This document shows positions 1-49,771 of a stretch of DNA of 64,000 nucleotides, piece after piece. Within the stretch, counting starts at the first letter, position 1. Every line of letters starts with the position of its first letter. The notes under the pieces are model-generated. The model had not been told where the DNA came from. It searched no databases and saw nothing but the letters and a program-made list of their open reading frames with translations. Made by a program: the position numbers and the translations under genes. This stretch comes from Candidatus Obscuribacterales bacterium (GTDB taxonomy: Bacteria; Cyanobacteriota; Vampirovibrionia; Obscuribacterales; Obscuribacteraceae): contig JAGVLS010000018.1 of assembly GCA_020054205.1 (NCBI GenBank), positions 62,001-126,000 on the forward strand. The letters are read 5' to 3'.

Positions 1-3000
1 GTAACAGCGCTTGATTGTTCCATTAAATCCAAAAGAAATTGATCTATTTGTAATTTTTTCATACTTATAGTTATGCTTGATTCTTTTGTCGATGGTATAT
101 ACCTGCCATCCATATGGATTTCGCCACCGGATATAGTGGCATGAGCGTCTTTCAGTAAAATCTGTGGCACTTGTTTATTTTCGAAAATAATATTAGCGTG
201 CATATCTTTGACATTTAGCCCAGCAATCGAACCTGATTGAAAGTCTAACTTGGTTTGCGAAGTGCTATCGGCAGTGAGGAAGCTATTCATGTTAAAGATT
301 GTCCATTGAGGAGTTTCAATTTTGCCATTAAGATCAACAATCTTTAATTCAGGTATAGACACATTTTTGATAGCGAGATCGGCATGTGTTAAAAGGTGAT
401 CTGCTTGTCCAGACATAGCAATTGTGCCTTTAAATGTTCCATTTGTTCCATCGGTGGAAATAGAAGGATCGAGCATGGACAAAACAGTTCTAGTGTCGAT
501 AGCATTAATAGTAGTAATAACAAAATCAAGTTTGTCTTTTTTACTATCCAAAGAATTTGGAATGTATTTGCCTCTAGCTTGAATAACGGATTTGCCTATG
601 GTTAGCTCACACTTTGTGATATCAATGTAATTGCTATTTGCATCTTCATCCTGGTCGTCATCATGTATTCTCATTACTATGTTCAAATTCATGGCTTGTG
701 GAGCGGGTTGGTAAATAGTGCCCCATTTGCCAAATTTGATTTTAAAATTGCTATTAGCAATAATTTTAAGCGTTGACTCAATATTTTTTGTTTGCTTGTC
801 GTTTGTTATGTTAGCTTTGATAAACAAAGGCTTATTAGAAAATATTTCCATTTTATAAACACTGGCAAGTTCTGGCAATAAATTAGTTAAATCCTGAGGA
901 AAGACCTGTCCTTTTATATTTGTTGTTATTGCCTGCTTACCAAATAAGTCACTTATATGACCAGTAATAGCAAATCTGCTTTTGCCAAGAGAAACGCGAG
1001 AATCTTGTATGTCTACGTCCTGATTTTTAAAATTCAATAAAGCCAATGTACGATAAAAAGGCAGCTGATTATTCCCAATTTTACCTGCTAAATTGTAAAC
1101 ACCAAGACTGCCGTCTATAGAAGGATTATGTGTTTTCTTCTGCCATGAAATACTGCCATATAATTTACCGCGTAATAAAGATAAATTGTATTTGTTTAAA
1201 AGATTGGTATAGAAAGAAAATGTTTCTTTTAAATAGGGAGAGCTCAGAACATAATTATTTACTTCAGCAATATCTATTTCATCACAAGAAATTTTTGCCC
1301 ATTTTACTTGGATATTGGAATTGATATTAGTGAAACTTCCATTTGCTATTAATTTGCCAGAATTACCAATTATGTTTACATCTTTTAAAGACATATCATT
1401 ATTTGTGATGGCAATTGTGCCAGCTGATAATTTAAGAGAAGTATTTTTATTTGGTGAATGAGAAACTAGCCGAATGTCTTCTGGAGACAAATTTATAGAA
1501 ATACTAGGTTTATCTAGGTTATTAGTAACATTACAGGTAATGTTAGCTGCTCTACCACTTATCGAATTTGTAATTTTAGGTAATTGGATTTGATAAGAAT
1601 GGGCAATATCTATAAGTTGTTTTAAATCTACATGAGTACCGGTCAAAACTAAATTGCATTTGTTGTGGGTCCCTGTTTGGATAGATCCATTTATACGAAA
1701 ATTGCCTGGCTTACTCTTGGTGGTACCCGGTAATTGTCCTTGTATATTATTGAGGCTAATATAATTGTCTTTGTAGGTTAATCCACCAGAGACATGCTCA
1801 GCAATAATTTTGTTGTCGTTATAAATAAGTGCATCTTTCAATACTGTCTCTATTGTAGTAGTTTCTTTCTTGTCAATTATGTCTAATTGTCCAGTTAGGC
1901 TAGCTTGCCCAGAAAAACGTAATGATTTAAGCGTCATTGATTTGCCAAATAAATTTTGAGGCAACCAATCAGTATTGGTATTTTTTATTTCAAGATCGTT
2001 GGCAAAGAATTTTATATGTGCTTCTTTATCTGTATTTACTAAATAACCGTTGATATTTAAAGAAGTGTTTTGAAAAGGAATTTCTAATTTGTGAATGTCT
2101 ATTTTTCCGGAATTAATTGAGATATTGCTCTTAATATTAGTCTCTTTATCAAAATCAAATAAAGAAGAAAATAGTGCTTTGTTTTTTACGTTGGGTAAAA
2201 AGTCAGAAAATATTGACTGAGCATTGGCAGTTCTTATTTTTAAATCTGACCAAGTCATATTATTGGCATCAATTAAAAAGGAAGCATTAGCATTAACTTG
2301 ATGAGAACTTGGCGGAGCTTTAGCTGTAGCAATATAATCTAATGCATTTATCTGAGATTTGATAATTCCTTTGATACCTTTTTTATAAGTTCCTTCTCCA
2401 GAAGCCTGCATAGTAATTAACTTATTGTCCAAGCGACTTGGAAGATTAACAATAAACGGCTTTAAATATGATGAGCGAATATTTTTTGTCTCTAGAGTAA
2501 ATTTATATTTATTGGTTTGCCACTCCTTAAAATAGCCATATCCCATAACATTCAGACGAACCCATGCATGAGGATCGTGAGTGTTTTTGTTGGGAATTTG
2601 AAAATACAAATAAAAAGGCCATTGAGTCTGTCTTTTCGGCATAACTAGCTTTAAGCTAATTCTTTCAAAATTTGAAATGGGGATAGACTTTCTATAGTGT
2701 GAATCGTATTGGTCTACGTGTAATTTCCCATTTTCTATTTGAATAAATCGAATTTCTGGTCCATCCACTAATAAATCAGAAAAATTCCAATAATTTGGAC
2801 CAATTTTATAAACCCAAAATTGTGGTGAATTTAAATCAATATGTTTAATAATTAGCTTGCCTCTTAAAAGAGGTAAGAAAGCAATGCTTAAATCAACCGG
2901 ACCTGATTTTATAAAAACATTTTTGTTCAAATGATTATCGGACACGGTCATTTTATTTGAAGATAAAGTCAGTCCATTTAAACCCAGGCGGCAAGAAAGA

Positions 3001-3236
3001 GTATCTAGTTTTACTTGCCTATGCAAAGACAATGACAATGAATCTTCTAGATATGGATGAATCAAGTTAATATTGGCCATCAAAAGATAAAAGCTGGCAA
3101 AGCAAACAACAAATAAAGTAGCAAAAATAAACCCAAGTCTTTTAAGGCTAGTTTTAATTTGCTCGCCCAAAAATTTATTGTGTTTATTATTTTCTCCGGT
3201 ATTTTTTGTAATTTTGCCTGGAATTATTGATGGCAT
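1..3236 (-). CDS. AsmA-like envelope protein, 3'-truncated by the window edge
   Basis: The frame reads without a stop from the ATG at 3236 to the left edge, giving at least 1078 residues; I checked the frame at several points along it. The N-terminus is basic, then one membrane helix sits at about residues 35-55, followed by the AsmA pattern of a conserved first domain (motifs near SLSLHRQVKL and LPLLRGKLIIKHIDL). The rest is a long series of repeating beta segments (for example ISINSGKIDI, HANIIFENKQV) typical of AsmA/YhdP/TamB-like bridge proteins. Family knowledge: these proteins span the periplasm and affect lipid transport and outer-membrane homeostasis. The family level is well supported; which subfamily is not resolved because the C-terminus is missing. 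Nothing upstream on the same strand suggests an operon partner inside the window. Confidence 0.85.
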   Translation of the reverse strand, partial: MPSIIPGKITKNTGENNKHNKFLGEQIKTSLKRLGFIFATLFVVCFASFYLLMANINLIHPYLEDSLSLSLHRQVKLDTLSCRLGLNGLTLSSNKMTVSDNHLNKNVFIKSGPVDLSIAFLPLLRGKLIIKHIDLNSPQFWVYKIGPNYWNFSDLLVDGPEIRFIQIENGKLHVDQYDSHYRKSIPISNFERISLKLVMPKRQTQWPFYLYFQIPNKNTHDPHAWVRLNVMGYGYFKEWQTNKYKFTLETKNIRSSYLKPFIVNLPSRLDNKLITMQASGEGTYKKGIKGIIKSQINALDYIATAKAPPSSHQVNANASFLIDANNMTWSDLKIRTANAQSIFSDFLPNVKNKALFSSLFDFDKETNIKSNISINSGKIDIHKLEIPFQNTSLNINGYLVNTDKEAHIKFFANDLEIKNTNTDWLPQNLFGKSMTLKSLRFSGQASLTGQLDIIDKKETTTIETVLKDALIYNDNKIIAEHVSGGLTYKDNYISLNNIQGQLPGTTKSKPGNFRINGSIQTGTHNKCNLVLTGTHVDLKQLIDIAHSYQIQLPKITNSISGRAANITCNVTNNLDKPSISINLSPEDIRLVSHSPNKNTSLKLSAGTIAITNNDMSLKDVNIIGNSGKLIANGSFTNINSNIQVKWAKISCDEIDIAEVNNYVLSSPYLKETFSFYTNLLNKYNLSLLRGKLYGSISWQKKTHNPSIDGSLGVYNLAGKIGNNQLPFYRTLALLNFKNQDVDIQDSRVSLGKSRFAITGHISDLFGKQAITTNIKGQVFPQDLTNLLPELASVYKMEIFSNKPLFIKANITNDKQTKNIESTLKIIANSNFKIKFGKWGTIYQPAPQAMNLNIVMRIHDDDQDEDANSNYIDITKCELTIGKSVIQARGKYIPNSLDSKKDKLDFVITTINAIDTRTVLSMLDPSISTDGTNGTFKGTIAMSGQADHLLTHADLAIKNVSIPELKIVDLNGKIETPQWTIFNMNSFLTADSTSQTKLDFQSGSIAGLNVKDMHANIIFENKQVPQILLKDAHATISGGEIHMDGRYIPSTKESSITISMKKLQIDQFLLDLMEQSSAV

Positions 3237-41541: not shown

Positions 41542-41949
41542 TTATTTTTTTGCTTCTGCCTGAATAGGTTCAAGTTTATCTATATGAGCAATAAATTCTT
41601 TTACGTCATTAATAAAGCGAGCTGGTTGAACTTTAGACAACCATACGCCTAATACACGTCTTCTATCAACAGTCTTTTTCAAACCGGGTGGTCTTTCACC
41701 TAAAAGTCTTTCGCGAATCATTTTATTGCCTTCACGATAATAACAATCACCAATTTGACAGCCAGTAACAATTACTCCTTCTGCTCCAGATTTTAAAGCT
41801 GCCTCAACCATTAAAGGTTGAATCATGCCGGAACAAGGAAATTTCACTATATAAACGCCATTAACATCTTTAAGCTGTCCTTTTTCATCGACATGCTCGC
41901 TTAAATCGCAAGATCGTTCACACATTAGGCTAATTACTTTTGCAGACAT
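41542..41949 (-). CDS. FrhD/MvhD-like iron-sulfur electron-transfer protein
   Basis: 135 residues. Hydrogenase delta-subunit domain (FrhD/MvhD, PF02662): C10 and C14 (CERSC), FPCSGMIQPLMVEAALKSGAEGVIVTGCQIGDCYYREGN with C39, C64 and C69. In methanogens MvhD carries a [2Fe-2S] cluster and passes electrons to heterodisulfide reductase; here it sits in a complex III/IV operon, right after the cytochrome b-ferredoxin gene. It probably takes or delivers electrons from that ferredoxin domain. Confidence 0.85.
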   Translation of the reverse strand: MSAKVISLMCERSCDLSEHVDEKGQLKDVNGVYIVKFPCSGMIQPLMVEAALKSGAEGVIVTGCQIGDCYYREGNKMIRERLLGERPPGLKKTVDRRRVLGVWLSKVQPARFINDVKEFIAHIDKLEPIQAEAKK

Positions 41950-41966: not shown

Positions 41967-43112
41967 TTATCCCTGTTGGGCTAAAGCCTTAATTTTGTTA
42001 GTGACATCAGTATCTAATAGATCTGGTAAATCAATAGCGTCAAATGCACAAGCACCAACGCATACACCACAACCAGAACAACGATATGGTTTTACAGTAG
42101 CTAAAAGTTTAAATCTAGAACCAGCAGGTGCTGGCACCATTTCAATTGCTGCATATGGGTAATCGTTGGCACATAATGAACAACCAGTACATTTGTTCAA
42201 AACAACTTCCGCTGCTTCTACTTCTTTTGTTCTGACAAAATATGGTAAATAGCAAAGTAATGCTGTGCCGCCAATCATAACAGCCCAGAATGCCCACATA
42301 GGAGCATTAGCCATAATGTAATAGGGCCATAAGAAAAACCAGTCCATTTCAAACGAATTGGGTTGATCAGTTAAATGAGCCATACCGCCTGGTTCCATAT
42401 GAATAGGAAAGGCAAAAACAACAAGCATAATTGTTGCCATCAATATGTAATTGATAGCAGGTGGCGGAGTAACAACTGGTCTTTGCATACGAATATAGTG
42501 AATCCAAAGACCAAATAATAATGAGAATGAAAGTCCAATATGAATAAACAAGAAATTGGACATGGTGAAATTAGAGATAGTTTGTCCATTTAAAAACCAT
42601 GCTCTCAAACCATTACCAATAAAAGGTAGAGCCTCAAGTGCTGCTACTGTCATCCGAGTCAATACCAATGATCTTTGATCCCAGACTAAATAATAACCAG
42701 TTTGTCCAATGACAAGTACTAAAAGTAAAAGGACAACACCGCTTAACCACTGAACAATGCGATATTGACGATATCTATCAGTAAACCATACCCGTGCCAT
42801 GTGCAATAAAATTGTAATTACCATCGCATCCCCAGCGTATCGGTGTATGCCGCGAATTACTACACCAAATGGAATAGTATTAGTAATATAGTCAACGGAG
42901 CTGTATGCATTTATAAGTTGAGTAGATGCGTAAGCATTGTCGATGGTTGGAATGTAATAAGCAAATAATAAAAGTCCAGATAAAAACAGAACCCATAAAT
43001 AAAACTGAGGCAGAGCGCCGTGATAATAAAATGGATTGTATTTACTGGAGAAAATTTTATTAGTCCAGTTTTCAAAATTTTGAGTAGCTGTTGTTAATGG
43101 TTCAGTGTACAT
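41967..43112 (-). CDS. Cytochrome b fused to a C-terminal ferredoxin domain
   Basis: 381 residues. Membrane part resembles cytochrome b/b6 N-terminal domain: about seven helices with all four heme ligands by position, H90 and H104 in one helix (14 apart), H191 and H205 in another (14 apart). The Qo-like text is EMDWFF where canonical proteins have PEWY. The C-terminal 80 residues carry two cluster motifs: C308, C311, C314 with Y318 in place of the fourth cysteine before Pro319, and a complete C345, C348, C351, C355. The ferredoxin part faces the cytosolic side if the topology is standard. The frhD gene follows 17 bases downstream. Confidence 0.85.
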   Translation of the reverse strand: MYTEPLTTATQNFENWTNKIFSSKYNPFYYHGALPQFYLWVLFLSGLLLFAYYIPTIDNAYASTQLINAYSSVDYITNTIPFGVVIRGIHRYAGDAMVITILLHMARVWFTDRYRQYRIVQWLSGVVLLLLVLVIGQTGYYLVWDQRSLVLTRMTVAALEALPFIGNGLRAWFLNGQTISNFTMSNFLFIHIGLSFSLLFGLWIHYIRMQRPVVTPPPAINYILMATIMLVVFAFPIHMEPGGMAHLTDQPNSFEMDWFFLWPYYIMANAPMWAFWAVMIGGTALLCYLPYFVRTKEVEAAEVVLNKCTGCSLCANDYPYAAIEMVPAPAGSRFKLLATVKPYRCSGCGVCVGACAFDAIDLPDLLDTDVTNKIKALAQQG

Positions 43113-43122
43113 ATTCTATGGC

Positions 43123-43512
43123 TCATTTTTTTACGGGAATAACTGTTTCTTCTTCGGCATCTAAACGTCCAACGGCACAGATAGCAATTGCACTTGCTAT
43201 TAAGGCTGCACCTAAGAAAAATGAATATAAATAATATGGATAATTTGGATCTTCGGCAATTAGTTTACTTAGATCAGCGGCATGCACAGAATCAAATTTG
43301 CCAGCAATTTTTAAACCAATTTTTGCTAGCTCTTCGAATTTTTGCATTATTTCTTTGCTGCGTATTGGTGAGTCGCCAGAAATTGGCTTTACTTCATGTA
43401 CTTGAGCAGGAATAAGCTCAGCAGCTGGCATAAATACAGTCATTATGAAAGTAGATGCAGCAAATGCAAGTACAACACATATAACAGTTATTGTTAGTTT
43501 ATGAGCTTTCAT
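43123..43512 (-). CDS. Small two-helix membrane protein of the respiratory operon
   Basis: 129 residues. One helix at the N-terminus (LTITVICVVLAFAASTFIM), a soluble middle (ISGDSPIRSKEIMQKFEELAKIGLKIAGKF), then a second helix (LYSFFLGAALIASAIAICAVG) and a charged tail. No metal-binding motifs. Unknown family. Its ATG overlaps the previous gene's stop by one base (TAATG). Possibly a structural subunit of the bc-like complex. Confidence 0.55.
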   Translation of the reverse strand: MKAHKLTITVICVVLAFAASTFIMTVFMPAAELIPAQVHEVKPISGDSPIRSKEIMQKFEELAKIGLKIAGKFDSVHAADLSKLIAEDPNYPYYLYSFFLGAALIASAIAICAVGRLDAEEETVIPVKK

Positions 43513-43796
43513 TACTTGCTCTCCTTTTCTCTCATTGATTGAAGTTTAGCGTGAATATACTCATAGAAGGTAATATGCTTTTTTAGACTACCTTTTGCTT
43601 TTTCATCAAAATAAATCCAATATCCTTGTAATAAAAGCAAAATAATAGTCGACAATGTGCCAGCCGCTAGTAGCGCCCAGTCCATAAAAGTACCAGATTC
43701 ACATACTTGGCGCCAACCAGCAAAAAACCAAGACAAAGTAATTACTGAGGCGATGAAAGCAGATAATTTATATGACCAGTGAATACTCATTATCAT
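43512..43796 (-). CDS. Small two-helix membrane protein of the respiratory operon
   Basis: 94 residues. Two helices (SAFIASVITLSWFFAGW, WALLAAGTLSTIILLLLQGYWIYF) and a basic tail. No recognised family, no cysteine pairs. Stop overlaps the next gene's start by one base. Placed between the larger cytochrome b and the second two-helix protein, it is likely a small structural subunit. Confidence 0.55.
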   Translation of the reverse strand: MIMSIHWSYKLSAFIASVITLSWFFAGWRQVCESGTFMDWALLAAGTLSTIILLLLQGYWIYFDEKAKGSLKKHITFYEYIHAKLQSMREKESK

Positions 43797-43802
43797 AACC
43801 CT

Positions 43803-45599
43803 TTATTTAACACCTGCTTCTTGAGCAACTTTGGGAGATGGAGGAGTTTGAGCTTGTTTGCTTTCCGCTTTAAATTTGTAAGCGGCAAAGAAACATATTA
43901 TTGCTACAACTGGACCAGCTATCATCCAATACCAATCTAAATCAGGAACTGGCAATGGATATTTTGTGGTTTCGTTAGCTGCTATTAGTCCTGGTGTTAG
44001 TCTATCCACAAGTTTTACATAATCAAAACAGAAACAATTGGATATCATGAAATCAATCATGCCATGATATTTAACTGCTACATGATTGGCTGTGTACTGA
44101 AATGTTGGAATTAGTTGGAAAAGAATATCAAATGGTGTTGATTGCTGACAAACAGATTGTATTTTTAAAAGCAAATCTTTGTTAGCAGGATTAGCACTAT
44201 CAGCTAATATTGTTGCCCAATTAGAAGGTTCCCAGAAGGTTGATAATTTTATTGAACTTCTTACTAATCCTTCAGCAGTTTCAGCGTTATTGCCCATAAA
44301 TGGTCTCATTACGCCATATACAGCTGCATGCCATAGTGGGTCGATAAACATTTCTGTTTTAGCCATGAAATAGTAAGCAATAGCTAAAACTGTTTGAATT
44401 ATAGCTACCCAACCCATAATAATGGCGCCTTTTGCCATTTTTAGTTTTTGTTTTACATCTGGGTTATTCCAAAAAACCATTAATTGCAAAATAATACCAA
44501 TATCAATTGGTAAGAATAAAAAGTCGCGCCAATAAGGTGGATCGTTATGAATATTGGCAATATTTACAATGATGAGTCCTGAAAATATTATCCAAGTCAA
44601 AAATCCCATAATTGTAACTAATAAAACTAATGGGCGTTTTGTTATGTCTTTTTCTGGTCCAGTTATCTCAACATCAATAAATGGCAGGAGAATAACGCTT
44701 AGTGGAATAACAAGAGTAATGTATGTGGCAACAACTGGCTCTAGATATTTATACATTTGATATAAGCCTAAGAAATACCAGTCGGATAATATAGGTAATG
44801 GTGTGACATCAGGATTGCTGCGATGTCCCAAAGCTGCCGGCATAATAATTGATACAACAACAAGCATAGCGATAATTACTGAACGTTTTAACCAACTAAG
44901 TGGCACACGTTTGTAGCCTGTTTTTAAGAAATATAGCTCTACAAAAATTAGTGGTATTAAAGAAAATGCTAAATGAAGAGAAAAGAATCTTGTAATTGTC
45001 TCTTGTGTAATAGCGCCACCAGCACCTAATAAAAATTCTGCTGTGTTCCAACCCATGTGTAATGATTTTACAAGTGGTTGATAGAAATCTCCTATGCCAA
45101 TGAATTGATCCATATAAGTTGGGAATGTGGCAAATACTTTTGTAGCCCAAAAAGCACGTTGGTTCCAAATCAAAAGATAGCCAGTCAATCCAGAATACAT
45201 TGATAGAAGAAGTGTAATTAAGCCAATTGCTATATTGAATTCCTTACCAGGCTTATAATCAGCCGCTAAGAACATACGATAAACACGCATGGTGGCAGCA
45301 ATGATCATAGCGTCAGCACCATATTTGTGAATGCCACGGATTATGTTGCCAAAAGGAATATGATGTTGAATATATAAAATGGAATCAAAGGCACTAGTTT
45401 TGGTTGGGATATACCACATGATAAGTAGCAATCCACTTGCCATGACTAAGAACCAAACTAAATAAAATATTGCGCCTAGCGAGTAAAAAGGATTGGTTTT
45501 TGCTTCATTGGCATAATGCTCATCGAATATATCGATGTTGGCAAGTCTTAGTTTTAGCCAATCTGTTGCACGATTTATAGAGCCAAGTATATTTTCCAT
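43803..45599 (-). CDS. Cytochrome b/b6-type protein lacking the n-side heme ligands
   Basis: 598 residues from the ATG at 45599, chosen because AAAGGA precedes it; the frame is open 8 codons further, over the Rieske gene. Residues about 40-425 resemble cytochrome b (helices with NIIRGIHKYG and RFFSLHLAF). By position the p-side heme ligands H91 and H209 are present. The n-side partners (14 residues after H91; 14-15 after H209) are R105 and Y223/F224. The Qo motif is SDWY (272-275) in place of PEWY. Beyond residue 425 a further 170 residues carry two or more helices and a soluble segment without CxxCH. The Rieske gene is 16 bases upstream. Confidence 0.85.
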   Translation of the reverse strand: MENILGSINRATDWLKLRLANIDIFDEHYANEAKTNPFYSLGAIFYLVWFLVMASGLLLIMWYIPTKTSAFDSILYIQHHIPFGNIIRGIHKYGADAMIIAATMRVYRMFLAADYKPGKEFNIAIGLITLLLSMYSGLTGYLLIWNQRAFWATKVFATFPTYMDQFIGIGDFYQPLVKSLHMGWNTAEFLLGAGGAITQETITRFFSLHLAFSLIPLIFVELYFLKTGYKRVPLSWLKRSVIIAMLVVVSIIMPAALGHRSNPDVTPLPILSDWYFLGLYQMYKYLEPVVATYITLVIPLSVILLPFIDVEITGPEKDITKRPLVLLVTIMGFLTWIIFSGLIIVNIANIHNDPPYWRDFLFLPIDIGIILQLMVFWNNPDVKQKLKMAKGAIIMGWVAIIQTVLAIAYYFMAKTEMFIDPLWHAAVYGVMRPFMGNNAETAEGLVRSSIKLSTFWEPSNWATILADSANPANKDLLLKIQSVCQQSTPFDILFQLIPTFQYTANHVAVKYHGMIDFMISNCFCFDYVKLVDRLTPGLIAANETTKYPLPVPDLDWYWMIAGPVVAIICFFAAYKFKAESKQAQTPPSPKVAQEAGVK

Positions 45600-45615
45600 A
45601 TGTCCTTTTCTTATA

Positions 45616-46182
45616 TTAGGCAATACCGCCAGCTTCTAACGATAGGATACTAATTTTTTCTCCCTCTTTTTTAACATCAAACTTCCTTGGTGGTCTAGGT
45701 GCTGGACCACTGACAACTTTGCCACCTTGAGCAATATCATAAACACTCAAATGACACGGACAAGCAAATACAGGACCATTTGGTTTGTAATTGTAGCCTT
45801 TCAAACATTCATCTGGGTCTTTGACAAAGTTGAAAATGCAGCCTAAGTGAGGACAGATACGGCTATAAGCGACCACATCACCTGAAGGTAATTTGACTGC
45901 AAAACCTGGAATTTTTCTCACTTCCATACCTTCTGGATTGTATTCTTTATATGATTGATTGAACATAAATGGAATACATGTCCAGGTATCAGGAAAATCT
46001 TTATCTGTAAATTCAACTGGTTTTAAAGGTTTTGGTTGATCTGATGGGCCTAAAAGATCAAGCGGTTGAATTGTTGGACGTAAAAATCTCAATAGCGGTG
46101 AAGCTACTAAACCGAAGGTAGCAGCTAACGGAATTGCTGCTAACACTTTTACTAATGTTCTGCGTGATGTGCCTTCTGTCAT
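45616..46182 (-). CDS. petC: Rieske iron-sulfur protein with a Tat-like signal
   Basis: 188 residues. The N-terminus has a twin-arginine SRRTLVKVL motif and one helix (about 15-32), as in Rieske proteins exported by Tat and held by their signal anchor. Cluster motifs C110, H112, C115 and C141, C143, H144 (CPHLGC and CPCH) give ligands C110, H112, C141 and H144 with a C115-C143 disulfide. It is the [2Fe-2S] partner of the cytochrome b proteins downstream, taking electrons from quinol at the p-side site. Confidence 0.96.
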   Translation of the reverse strand: MTEGTSRRTLVKVLAAIPLAATFGLVASPLLRFLRPTIQPLDLLGPSDQPKPLKPVEFTDKDFPDTWTCIPFMFNQSYKEYNPEGMEVRKIPGFAVKLPSGDVVAYSRICPHLGCIFNFVKDPDECLKGYNYKPNGPVFACPCHLSVYDIAQGGKVVSGPAPRPPRKFDVKKEGEKISILSLEAGGIA

Positions 46183-46190
46183 AACTTCCC

Positions 46191-46955
46191 CTACTGTTTT
46201 TTAGTATTTTGGTCTTTGCTGGCCTCAGCTATAGTTGAAGCATTGCTTATGTGGAATTTGCGGACATACTGGACTAATTTGTGTATATAAGCTTCATCAA
46301 ACTTGATATTTTTTGTTTTATCCTGCTTACCTAGGAAATTAGGCATACCCTCCCAAGCAATACCATTTGCTATATGATCAAATAGTACTGCATCTGTTCT
46401 ATCATAAAATCTGTTGAAACGTTGGAAATTAGCTGGTGATGGTTCTAAATTATGTGCCAATGGTCCATCGCCATCTCCTTTTGTACCGTGACAAACAGCA
46501 CAATTAGAACCAAATACAGGATCAATTGCCTCAATTTCTTTATCTGTCAAAGCTGGGGCTGAAAATGATCTTGTATAAACAACTAAATCCCAAATTTTGT
46601 TGTCGCTAATTTTGCTACGTAAACTCTTATGATTAGCGTCTCCTTTAGCAAGCATTTCATATATTTCAATTGGTTTTTTGCTTGCTCCCCAAAGTGGATT
46701 TGTTAAATCAACTATTTTTCCATTTTCATATTTTGCAGTGCCAACGCCGGCTGTTGAATGGCATTGTGCACAATTCATTTGGTTGTAAACCAATTTGCCA
46801 TCAGGAATTGAAGGAGCAACATCTGGATAAACAATTTCCGATAATGGAGCGGCAGTAGTTTGTTTCTCAGCCAAATTTGTTGTTACTGGCTTTTCAGAAC
46901 AAGCTGTTAAAAGCAGTATAGCGGGTAATAAAAGTAATAGTTTTTTGTCTTTCAT
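46191..46955 (-). CDS. Di-heme cytochrome c lipoprotein
   Basis: 254 residues. Lipoprotein signal (LLLLLPAILLLTAC, lipid on C19). Two c-heme sites: CAQCH (C62, C65, H66) and CAVCH (C152, C155, H156), each followed by a cytochrome c-like helix and a distal Met candidate (WEGMPNF for the second). Likely the periplasmic electron carrier between the Rieske protein and CcoN/CcoO; it may stand in for CcoP, which is otherwise missing. Confidence 0.9.
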   Translation of the reverse strand: MKDKKLLLLLPAILLLTACSEKPVTTNLAEKQTTAAPLSEIVYPDVAPSIPDGKLVYNQMNCAQCHSTAGVGTAKYENGKIVDLTNPLWGASKKPIEIYEMLAKGDANHKSLRSKISDNKIWDLVVYTRSFSAPALTDKEIEAIDPVFGSNCAVCHGTKGDGDGPLAHNLEPSPANFQRFNRFYDRTDAVLFDHIANGIAWEGMPNFLGKQDKTKNIKFDEAYIHKLVQYVRKFHISNASTIAEASKDQNTKKQ

Positions 46956-47438: not shown

Positions 47439-48386
47439 CTATTCTCCTCCTGAAGCTGGTTCCCATTGTTGATGGGATAACTTAGGTAATTTTATTTGTT
47501 GAACTGGATTTAGTTGATCGACATTGTCTATTACTTCTTCTTTTTCTTTTGGTAGTGTTTTGAGATAAGCAACTAAATACCATCTTTGTTCTTCTGTTAA
47601 CACTTCGCCAAAACGTGGCATTCTTGTACCAACTACTCCTTCGGTTACGCGATAAAACCAAAATTCGTCAGAATATTGTTTGTAGAATGGTCTTGTAAAA
47701 TTAGCTGGTTTTTTCTCCAGCGATAAAGCGTTTGGTCCGTTGCCATATCCTTGCAGTCCGTGACAAGCAGCACAATTTTGCGTGTAAATTCCACGACCAG
47801 CATTAGCTGAGGCATCAGCTTTTGTATCTACGTGTTTGCGAGCCAAAAGCTCTTTACCATAAGTGCTTTTGTTTGTGTATTCATCAGGAGCTTCAACAAG
47901 TTCAGTAACTTTGCGTCTATTGCCAAGTGTTTGTATATAAGCAACCAAATCATTCATATCTCGATCGGACAAATAACTAAAACTTGGCATTATAGAACCT
48001 GGCTTTAATGCTCTTGGATTAATCAAATGTGCTTTTTGCCATTCAGAAGGGAAACGACCACCTTCATTAGTTAGATCAGGACCAGTACGTGCTGTACCTA
48101 ATACGTGTGGTGTTTCATCAACATAATCGCCAGCTTGAACAAGAGGTCCATAACCACGATCTTGCAAGCGAGTAAATTGAGTATGACAATAAAAACAACC
48201 TTCTCTTACATATATTTGTCTACCTCTGGCTGGATCGGTTTGAGCTAGTTTATTCTTTTCATACTGATTGCCATGTCCAGAGGGTGATGGGTTGAATATA
48301 ACCATTGGCAGCAAAACTGTAGAGCCGATTATGGCAAAGAAAGTAATGATGACAGCATTTGCACCTTGGCGGAAATTGCTTTTCAT
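47439..48386 (-). CDS. ccoO: CcoO-type cytochrome c fused to a second cytochrome c domain
   Basis: 315 residues. One membrane helix near the N-terminus; CcoO-like heme site CFYCH (C64, C67, H68) with HTQFTRLQDRGYGPLV; the text MPSFSYLSDRDMNDLVAYIQTLGN is typical CcoO. A second cytochrome c module carries CAACH (C205, C208, H209) with RMPRFGEVLTEEQRWYLVAYLKTLP, more like a stand-alone cytochrome c or CcoP domain. So one chain carries two hemes, possibly replacing part of CcoP. Overlaps ccoN by 1 base. Confidence 0.9.
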   Translation of the reverse strand: MKSNFRQGANAVIITFFAIIGSTVLLPMVIFNPSPSGHGNQYEKNKLAQTDPARGRQIYVREGCFYCHTQFTRLQDRGYGPLVQAGDYVDETPHVLGTARTGPDLTNEGGRFPSEWQKAHLINPRALKPGSIMPSFSYLSDRDMNDLVAYIQTLGNRRKVTELVEAPDEYTNKSTYGKELLARKHVDTKADASANAGRGIYTQNCAACHGLQGYGNGPNALSLEKKPANFTRPFYKQYSDEFWFYRVTEGVVGTRMPRFGEVLTEEQRWYLVAYLKTLPKEKEEVIDNVDQLNPVQQIKLPKLSHQQWEPASGGE

Positions 48387-49771
48387 TAAGCTTTTACCTC
48401 CTGAGCTAATTTGCTTTCTTTTTCGGCAACAGGAGTATAGAAACTTCTATAGGCGTTGTAGGCAAATAAAACTTGACCTAAAAGAATCATTATTCCGCTA
48501 AATGCTCTGATTGCCCAATAAGGTCTGATTTGTAGTCCCCATTGATCAACAGGAATGCCCATCGCCCAACCGGCAGCTTGTACTAAACCAGCAGTAGTGA
48601 GAGATAACATCATAATTGTAAAACCAAGTGTTTTTAGCCAATAATGCGCTCTGATTAAACCGTGTGAATACCATTTACGTCCAGTTAACCTTGGCAATCC
48701 ATAATATAAAGCAGCAGTCAATATAAAAGAGAAAGTACCTAATAAAGCTAAGTGAGCATGTCCGACTACCCATTGCGTAAAGTGGATATACCAATTAATC
48801 CAACGTGTAGCTTGGAATGGACCTTGGATACAAGTGATGTAATAAAAAATTGCCGATGTAACAGCAAAACGCAATGGTAAGTCAGTAACTACTAATTGCC
48901 ATTTACCTTTCATAGTCATAAAGAAATTGGTTAGTACTGTAAATACTGGTACTAATAAAAATATAGACGATATTATTGCAATTGCTTTTAGCCATTCAGG
49001 TACTGGCGATTGCAATATATGGTGAGTACCAGTTGGAGCATAAAATAAAGCAATACCCCAAAATCCAATTAAAGATAAACCGTGGCTATATAAAGGACTA
49101 TTGGCAAGCCTGGGTAATAAGTAATACATCATGCCAACGCCAACTGTGGTAAACCACATACCTAATATATTGTGTCCATAAAACCAGCCAACAATTGCAT
49201 CGTTTAAACCAGGCAATTGCACAAATGTTCTTTGTCCAATTACATATACGAGTGGAAACCAGAACAATGCACCAAGAAAATACCAAAGACTGACGTATAG
49301 CTTTCTTACTTTTCTATTTACTACAGTTTGCCAAACATTTAGTCCAACTAATACAAGTAAGACAACTGCAATTACATCAAGTACTGCACCTAATTCTGCA
49401 TATTCTCTTCCTTCGGTATATCCATTTAGTAAAGTGCAGAAAGCACCGACCATTAATAAATTCCATCCCCACATGGCAGTATTGCCAAGGCGTTCACTCC
49501 ATAAAGGAGATTTAGTTAATGAAGGGATCATATAAAACATGGCGCCAATGTATCCCATAGATAGCCAACCTATAGCGACAACATTGACATGCATCATTCT
49601 CAAATGTGGCATCGATAGCTGGGGCACATTATGGACTAAGTCTGGCATTGAAAATTCCAGTCCGGCAAATAGCCCAGAGCCCATGCCAATTACTGACCAA
49701 AACAAAGCTGATAGCATGAAATTGCGACTGGCACTGCCTTCCTTGTCGCTTATAAGCCTGTCAATAAACAT
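48386..49771 (-). CDS. ccoN: cbb3-type cytochrome c oxidase subunit I
   Basis: 461 residues, twelve or so helices. Ligands visible: LRMMHVNVVAIGWL (heme b H61), FYGHNILG (H200, CuB), GTHH (H250, H251, CuB), VVGHAHLALLG (H338 heme b3, H340 heme b), and Y244 in ALFYAPTGTHH placed like the cross-linked tyrosine of C-family oxidases. Reduces oxygen to water with proton pumping, usually at high oxygen affinity. It is the first gene of the operon, which runs to 41390; the 359-base gap upstream should hold the promoter. Confidence 0.95.
   Translation of the reverse strand: MFIDRLISDKEGSASRNFMLSALFWSVIGMGSGLFAGLEFSMPDLVHNVPQLSMPHLRMMHVNVVAIGWLSMGYIGAMFYMIPSLTKSPLWSERLGNTAMWGWNLLMVGAFCTLLNGYTEGREYAELGAVLDVIAVVLLVLVGLNVWQTVVNRKVRKLYVSLWYFLGALFWFPLVYVIGQRTFVQLPGLNDAIVGWFYGHNILGMWFTTVGVGMMYYLLPRLANSPLYSHGLSLIGFWGIALFYAPTGTHHILQSPVPEWLKAIAIISSIFLLVPVFTVLTNFFMTMKGKWQLVVTDLPLRFAVTSAIFYYITCIQGPFQATRWINWYIHFTQWVVGHAHLALLGTFSFILTAALYYGLPRLTGRKWYSHGLIRAHYWLKTLGFTIMMLSLTTAGLVQAAGWAMGIPVDQWGLQIRPYWAIRAFSGIMILLGQVLFAYNAYRSFYTPVAEKESKLAQEVKA

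Follow-up and report, generated by a model that had tools for sequence, protein, structure and literature searches.

A Rieske-linked cytochrome b without n-side heme ligands is encoded beside a complementary cytochrome b in Vampirovibrionia and other bacteria

The analysed window, a stretch of 64,000 nucleotides from a 3.3 Mb genome in 48 contigs (94% complete), contains nine consecutive genes on the minus strand. In order of transcription, they encode a CcoN-like protein, a fusion of CcoO with a cytochrome c, a diheme cytochrome c, a Rieske protein, a large cytochrome b, two small membrane proteins, a small cytochrome b with a ferredoxin domain, and FlpD (Table 1). The order is identical in the whole genomes of nine relatives of the class Vampirovibrionia and is likewise found, within the limits set by contig ends, in loci from named genomes. 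The operon is present in Vampirovibrio chlorellavorus too, and the loci nearest to that of the window are labelled Melainabacteria/Obscuribacterales, which places the host in the class Vampirovibrionia of the Cyanobacteriota. Three loci titled Actinobacteria, Proteobacteria and Chloroflexi (L060, L074 and L098) nevertheless carry operons of the Vampirovibrionia type, and these taxon labels are probably wrong. The open reading frame of the large b spans 43803-45623 (minus strand) and has a TTG start; we numbered its residues from the inner ATG at 45599 because the starts of its relatives align there.

Table 1. Coordinates of the operon genes and of the sites discussed in the text (positions in the window).
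Feature	Position	Strand	Remarks
CcoN-like C-type oxygen reductase subunit I	48386..49771	-	COX1 272 bits; ccoN 273 bits, under the ccoN cut-off
CcoO-like subunit fused to cytochrome c domain	47439..48386	-	FixO and Cytochrom_C
Diheme cytochrome c	46191..46955	-	Two CxxCH; two cytochrome c matches
Rieske iron-sulfur protein	45616..46182	-	Pfam Rieske; cluster ligands 74/74; Ser/Tyr pair
Large cytochrome b	43803..45599	-	Qo half retained together with the p-side heme site, no n-side heme site; Pfam Cytochrome_B 81 bits
R105 codon, at the place of the helix-B n-side heme ligand	45285..45287	-	R 70/K 10 in 80 homologs; on b6 H100
E221-L222-Y223 codons	44931..44939	-	Y223 at the place of the helix-D n-side ligand; E221 invariant
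SDWY, Qo motif (PEWY in bc1)	44775..44786	-	SDWY 80/80
Small membrane protein	43512..43796	-	Same place in most loci; no family match
Second small membrane protein of the operon	43123..43512	-	Open reading frame and position; no Pfam match
Small cytochrome b	41967..43112	-	H90, H104, H191, H205; shortened C-terminal half; ferredoxin domain
Two-cluster 4Fe-4S domain of the small b	42048..42191	-	Fer4_7; seven Cys invariant 73/73
FlpD/MvhD-like 2Fe-2S protein	41542..41949	-	Pfam FlpD 71 bits; matches MvhD of 5odc; four Cys 71/71

The large b has the p-side heme ligands of a cytochrome b and lacks the n-side ones. Its H91 is followed by R105 in helix B (H+14) and its H209 by E221, Y223 and F224 in helix D, with SDWY at residues 272-275. 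When a profile of 50 homologs is compared with solved cytochrome b6, the p-side ligands H86 and H187 of b6 are matched by H91 and H209, and the n-side ligand H100 by R105; in a combined alignment, the other n-side ligand, H202, shares its column with Y223. We drew 80 distinct homologs from Vampirovibrionia, Armatimonadota and other uncultured lineages. All have the p-side histidine pair and none has the n-side pair, although these are the proteins that bear the Qo site: the helix-B position is either Arg or Lys (70 and 10 sequences), and the helix-D position is Tyr in 74, Phe in five and Leu in one. The Glu two residues before the latter (D+12) is invariant, and so is the Qo motif, in which Ser replaces the first Pro of PEWY while the carboxylate, Trp and Tyr are kept. 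The preliminary description had read the same residues at the n-side places and SDWY in place of PEWY, and both readings are borne out by the homologs and by the alignment with b6.

Conservation across all 80 homologs rules out a sequencing error or a pseudogene. No further histidine is conserved in at least 95% of the large b sequences (the next columns have His in 47, 60 and 51 of the 80), which excludes another histidine at the n-side site. Nor is ligand loss the norm for cytochromes b of these lineages: the same profile retrieved 27 other cytochromes b from Armatimonadota, and every one of them has four histidines, as do the 43 canonical controls. In the divergent Armatimonadota member L126 (large b at 1480-3135), the helix-B and helix-D n-side positions are Lys and His, possibly a half-way state of ligand loss.

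The rest of the n-side pocket has largely decayed together with the ligands: W118 of helix C (b6 numbering) is retained in 15% of the large b sequences, the packing glycine G121 in 30% and R114 in 29%. The AlphaFold2 model of the large b (pLDDT 85.1, pTM 0.85) aligns over residues 35-392 with the cytochrome b of bovine bc1, at Z 17.2 and with an rmsd of 3.4 for 323 residues; such models hold no cofactors, and the n-side pocket was judged empty from the sequence. With both n-side ligands gone, G121, W118 and R114 missing from most sequences and the p-side pocket preserved, the prediction that the large b binds the p-side heme alone, as initially proposed, is well supported.

The small b shows the converse pattern. 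It has all four heme-ligand histidines in 73 of 73 sequences, p-side pair included, in agreement with the four histidines first read in the companion gene, and it occurs together with the large b and FlpD in all 67 loci that extend at least 3 kb beyond the large b. We compared the two families at b6 positions whose roles we take from solved structures. The n-side pocket (H100, R114, W118, G121 and H202) is retained in 100% of small b and in 0-30% of large b sequences, whereas the p-side pocket (G51, R83, H86, G135, Y136 and H187) is retained in at least 97% of both. Conversely, the residues of the Qo cd-region (Q142, W146, A147, G171 and R182) are present in 100% of large b sequences and in 16, 0, 0, 19 and 26% of small b sequences, respectively. 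Over all conserved columns, the asymmetry between n and p sides is marginal (permutation p 0.05), with exceptions at D141 (Asn in the large b) and at K111 and E115 (kept in the large b only). The distances within the two b families are correlated (r 0.94), which is weak evidence because any co-inherited operon would show such a correlation. The pattern of loss at the functional sites is the one expected of divided labour between the two proteins. The Rieske protein encoded alongside has its two Cys and two His cluster ligands in 74 of 74 sequences.

For the small b, the AlphaFold2 model has a pLDDT of 79.6 and renders the ferredoxin domain poorly; it superposes on the cytochrome b of an actinobacterial bcc complex (9gy6) with Z 26.7 and an rmsd of 2.9 for 272 residues. 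Most members keep an xDWF motif, so a residual Qo site is possible. The ferredoxin domain of this companion b and the neighbouring FlpD gene, on which the preliminary description was silent, change the likely function of the complex. In addition to the seven invariant cysteines of the domain, the eighth is Cys in 72 of 73 sequences. The FlpD score lies well above the Pfam cut-off of 22.3 bits, and the C-terminal portion of HdrA2 is matched in succession by the ferredoxin domain and by FlpD; FlpD also matches MvhD of solved HdrABC-type complexes. HdrA itself was not found in the 94% complete genome, where the HdrA2 model picked up nothing above its cut-off and, below it, just the ferredoxin domain, FlpD and a single weak ferredoxin match. 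The same genome has no match to NuoF (PF01512), and complex I probably lacks its NADH module.

The module was found in Vampirovibrionia, in Armatimonadota and in lineages labelled ANGP1, i.e., in at least two phyla, with a clear large b in 3 of the 201 Armatimonadota genomes drawn. In the genome of the window, the only matches to PF00033 (Pfam Cytochrome_B) are the two b genes of the operon, and the genome of Vampirovibrio chlorellavorus has just two matches to the large b profile. The module thus seems to be the sole b-type complex III of both genomes. In the phylogenetic tree, each b protein forms a single clade and the two clades show similar broad splits. Large and small b are grouped together against canonical b (support 100/94), but we do not claim an origin by duplication because both are on long branches.

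We propose that the Rieske/cytochrome b complex of this operon has an obligate heterodimeric b core with divided labour, a reading to which we assign a probability of about two in three. The large b would provide the Qo site and heme bL only, with Arg or Lys, Glu and Tyr in the place of bH. The small b would hold bL, bH and two Fe-S clusters and, together with FlpD, would make up an arm on the cytoplasmic face. The large b would oxidise menaquinol and hand one electron to the Rieske protein, from which it would reach the C-type oxidase by way of the diheme cytochrome c. If the Qo-bearing subunit has no bH, the one exit for the low-potential electron is the bL of its neighbour, and the other electron would therefore pass from the bL of the large b to the bL and then the bH of the small b. 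From there it would reduce quinone on the n side and/or take part in an exchange with the cytoplasm, for which the ferredoxin domain and FlpD would be the route. It had been suggested from the start that the companion b could supply the missing path; strict linkage in the 67 loci, reciprocal loss and the single clades favour this indirectly, and from them we infer the physical heterodimer. The debate on whether electrons cross from one bL heme to the other in a functioning complex III has drawn on engineered asymmetric mutants. In an engineered bc1 with one half devoid of bH (H212N) and the other devoid of Qo activity, bL-to-bL transfer took place on the millisecond scale (PMC4330944).

The quinone used is likely to be menaquinone, because MqnC of the futalosine pathway is present in the genome and MenD was not detected there. 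The Rieske protein is predicted from its residues to be of the high-potential type: of the Ser/Tyr pair that raises the potential (PMC12954380), the Ser is found in 74 of 74 sequences and the Tyr in 62. The use of a low-potential quinone by a high-potential Rieske protein points to a very low potential of bL, the reasoning that was applied to anammox complexes bearing an NAD(P) module (PMC12954380). Because the predicted high-potential Rieske protein works with menaquinone, we lean slightly towards an arm that delivers electrons into the cytoplasm, i.e., quinone-based bifurcation, with input through FlpD nearly as likely. The most specific form of the proposal, which we hold to be less likely than not, is a natural obligate heterodimer in which every turnover would pass from bL to bL between unlike b proteins, and in which the oxidation of quinol by oxygen would push low-potential electrons along the ferredoxin domain and FlpD into the cytoplasm.

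The direction of the arm separates this form from another heterodimer, in which a soluble donor would feed electrons through FlpD and the clusters to the bH of the small b and on to menaquinone, merging complex III with a low-potential quinone reductase. In HdrABC-type complexes, MvhD/FlpD receives electrons from a donor enzyme and passes them to the ferredoxin domain of HdrA, the very direction that such an entry would use, and other entry points would be useful in a genome where NuoF was not found. Entry through the arm gives no reason, however, for the loss of bH from the large b, and the high-potential type of the Rieske protein favours output; we regard it as a genuine contender, at odds of roughly one to two. 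A structure without any heterodimer seems unlikely. It would consist of two homodimers in one supercomplex: a one-heme homodimer of the large b that runs no Q cycle and sends both quinol electrons to the Rieske protein, and one of the small b, which together with its ferredoxin arm would act independently as a quinone reductase (or quinol oxidase). What speaks for it is a histidine of the small b, His31, at b6 position 36, close to the attachment site of heme c-n; it is conserved in 65 of 73 sequences, the others having Thr. In AlphaFold3 models of anammox complexes, an additional heme b sits at His43, in between two equal b subunits (PMC12954380), and if the two histidines correspond, an interface heme of this kind would need a pair of small b subunits. 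Complementary loss and strict linkage nevertheless suit a pair of unlike proteins better, and the large b would not be expected to keep its p-side heme site and whole bL pocket invariant in 80 of 80 sequences if that heme had no exit.

Much less probable than any of these is a second heme in the large b held by unusual ligands (Lys, Tyr or Glu). The invariant Glu at D+12, the nearly invariant Tyr/Phe at D+14 and the Lys (B+14) and His (D+14) of L126 could be read in this way, but Arg occupies the helix-B position in 70 of 80 homologs, the glycine and tryptophan of helix C are mostly lost from the n-side pocket, and there is no additional conserved histidine.

The divided heterodimer that we favour shares with bc1 and b6f the cytochrome b fold, the p-side heme site, the Rieske protein, a c-type cytochrome and the carboxylate-Trp-Tyr core of the Qo motif. 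Unlike them, its operon encodes two dissimilar b proteins, one without an n-side heme site, together with an n-side ferredoxin domain and FlpD. A parallel is the cross-inactivated Rhodobacter bc1, a b-b fusion with H212N and G158W halves (PMC4330944), which has a half without bH, a half without Qo activity and the bL-to-bL passage that we infer here; those are man-made point mutants, whereas the present proteins are separate, diverged and conserved genes. The Rieske/cytochrome b complexes of the anammox bacterium Kuenenia (PMC12954380) likewise have an n-side redox module on a b core and a high-potential Rieske protein, and quinol-based bifurcation to a low-potential acceptor has been proposed for them. 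However, they are treated as symmetric b dimers with bP and bN hemes, and their module is of the flavin/NAD(P) type instead of ferredoxin and FlpD. The pairing of a ferredoxin domain with FlpD is that of the C-terminal part of HdrA2 and of HdrABC-MvhD, but here it is attached to a membrane cytochrome b in a genome without a detected HdrA flavoprotein. Finally, a combination of complexes III and IV reported in Melainabacteria (PMC6349859), with petB/petC-like genes beside a C-type oxidase in the same class, is very likely the same operon; the passages found in that source are silent on the second b, on heme ligands and on an arm of ferredoxin and FlpD.

Searches of the open-access literature yielded no account of any Rieske-linked cytochrome b that naturally lacks the n-side heme site, nor of two b proteins with reciprocal losses or an Fe-S/FlpD arm of this kind, and there the divided b layout is otherwise found only in engineered mutants. 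Evolution has apparently fixed a cross-inactivated b pair in at least two phyla, in which bL-to-bL transfer would be obligatory and directly testable. The Fe-S/FlpD arm would join complex III to soluble low-potential carriers, in a bacterium that is non-photosynthetic and whose class is a sister group of the photosynthetic Cyanobacteria.

Two features vary among the b proteins. The small b of the window has Tyr at residue 318, the fourth Cys of the first 4Fe-4S motif, where the other 72 of the 73 sequences have Cys; this can be either a real variant or an assembly error. The large b of the window has an extra C-terminal part of about 200 residues (43803-44444) with more predicted helices. Total lengths are alike in most members of the Obscuribacterales, and the extra part is absent from the large b of L108 and L115-L121, which have 380-390 residues.
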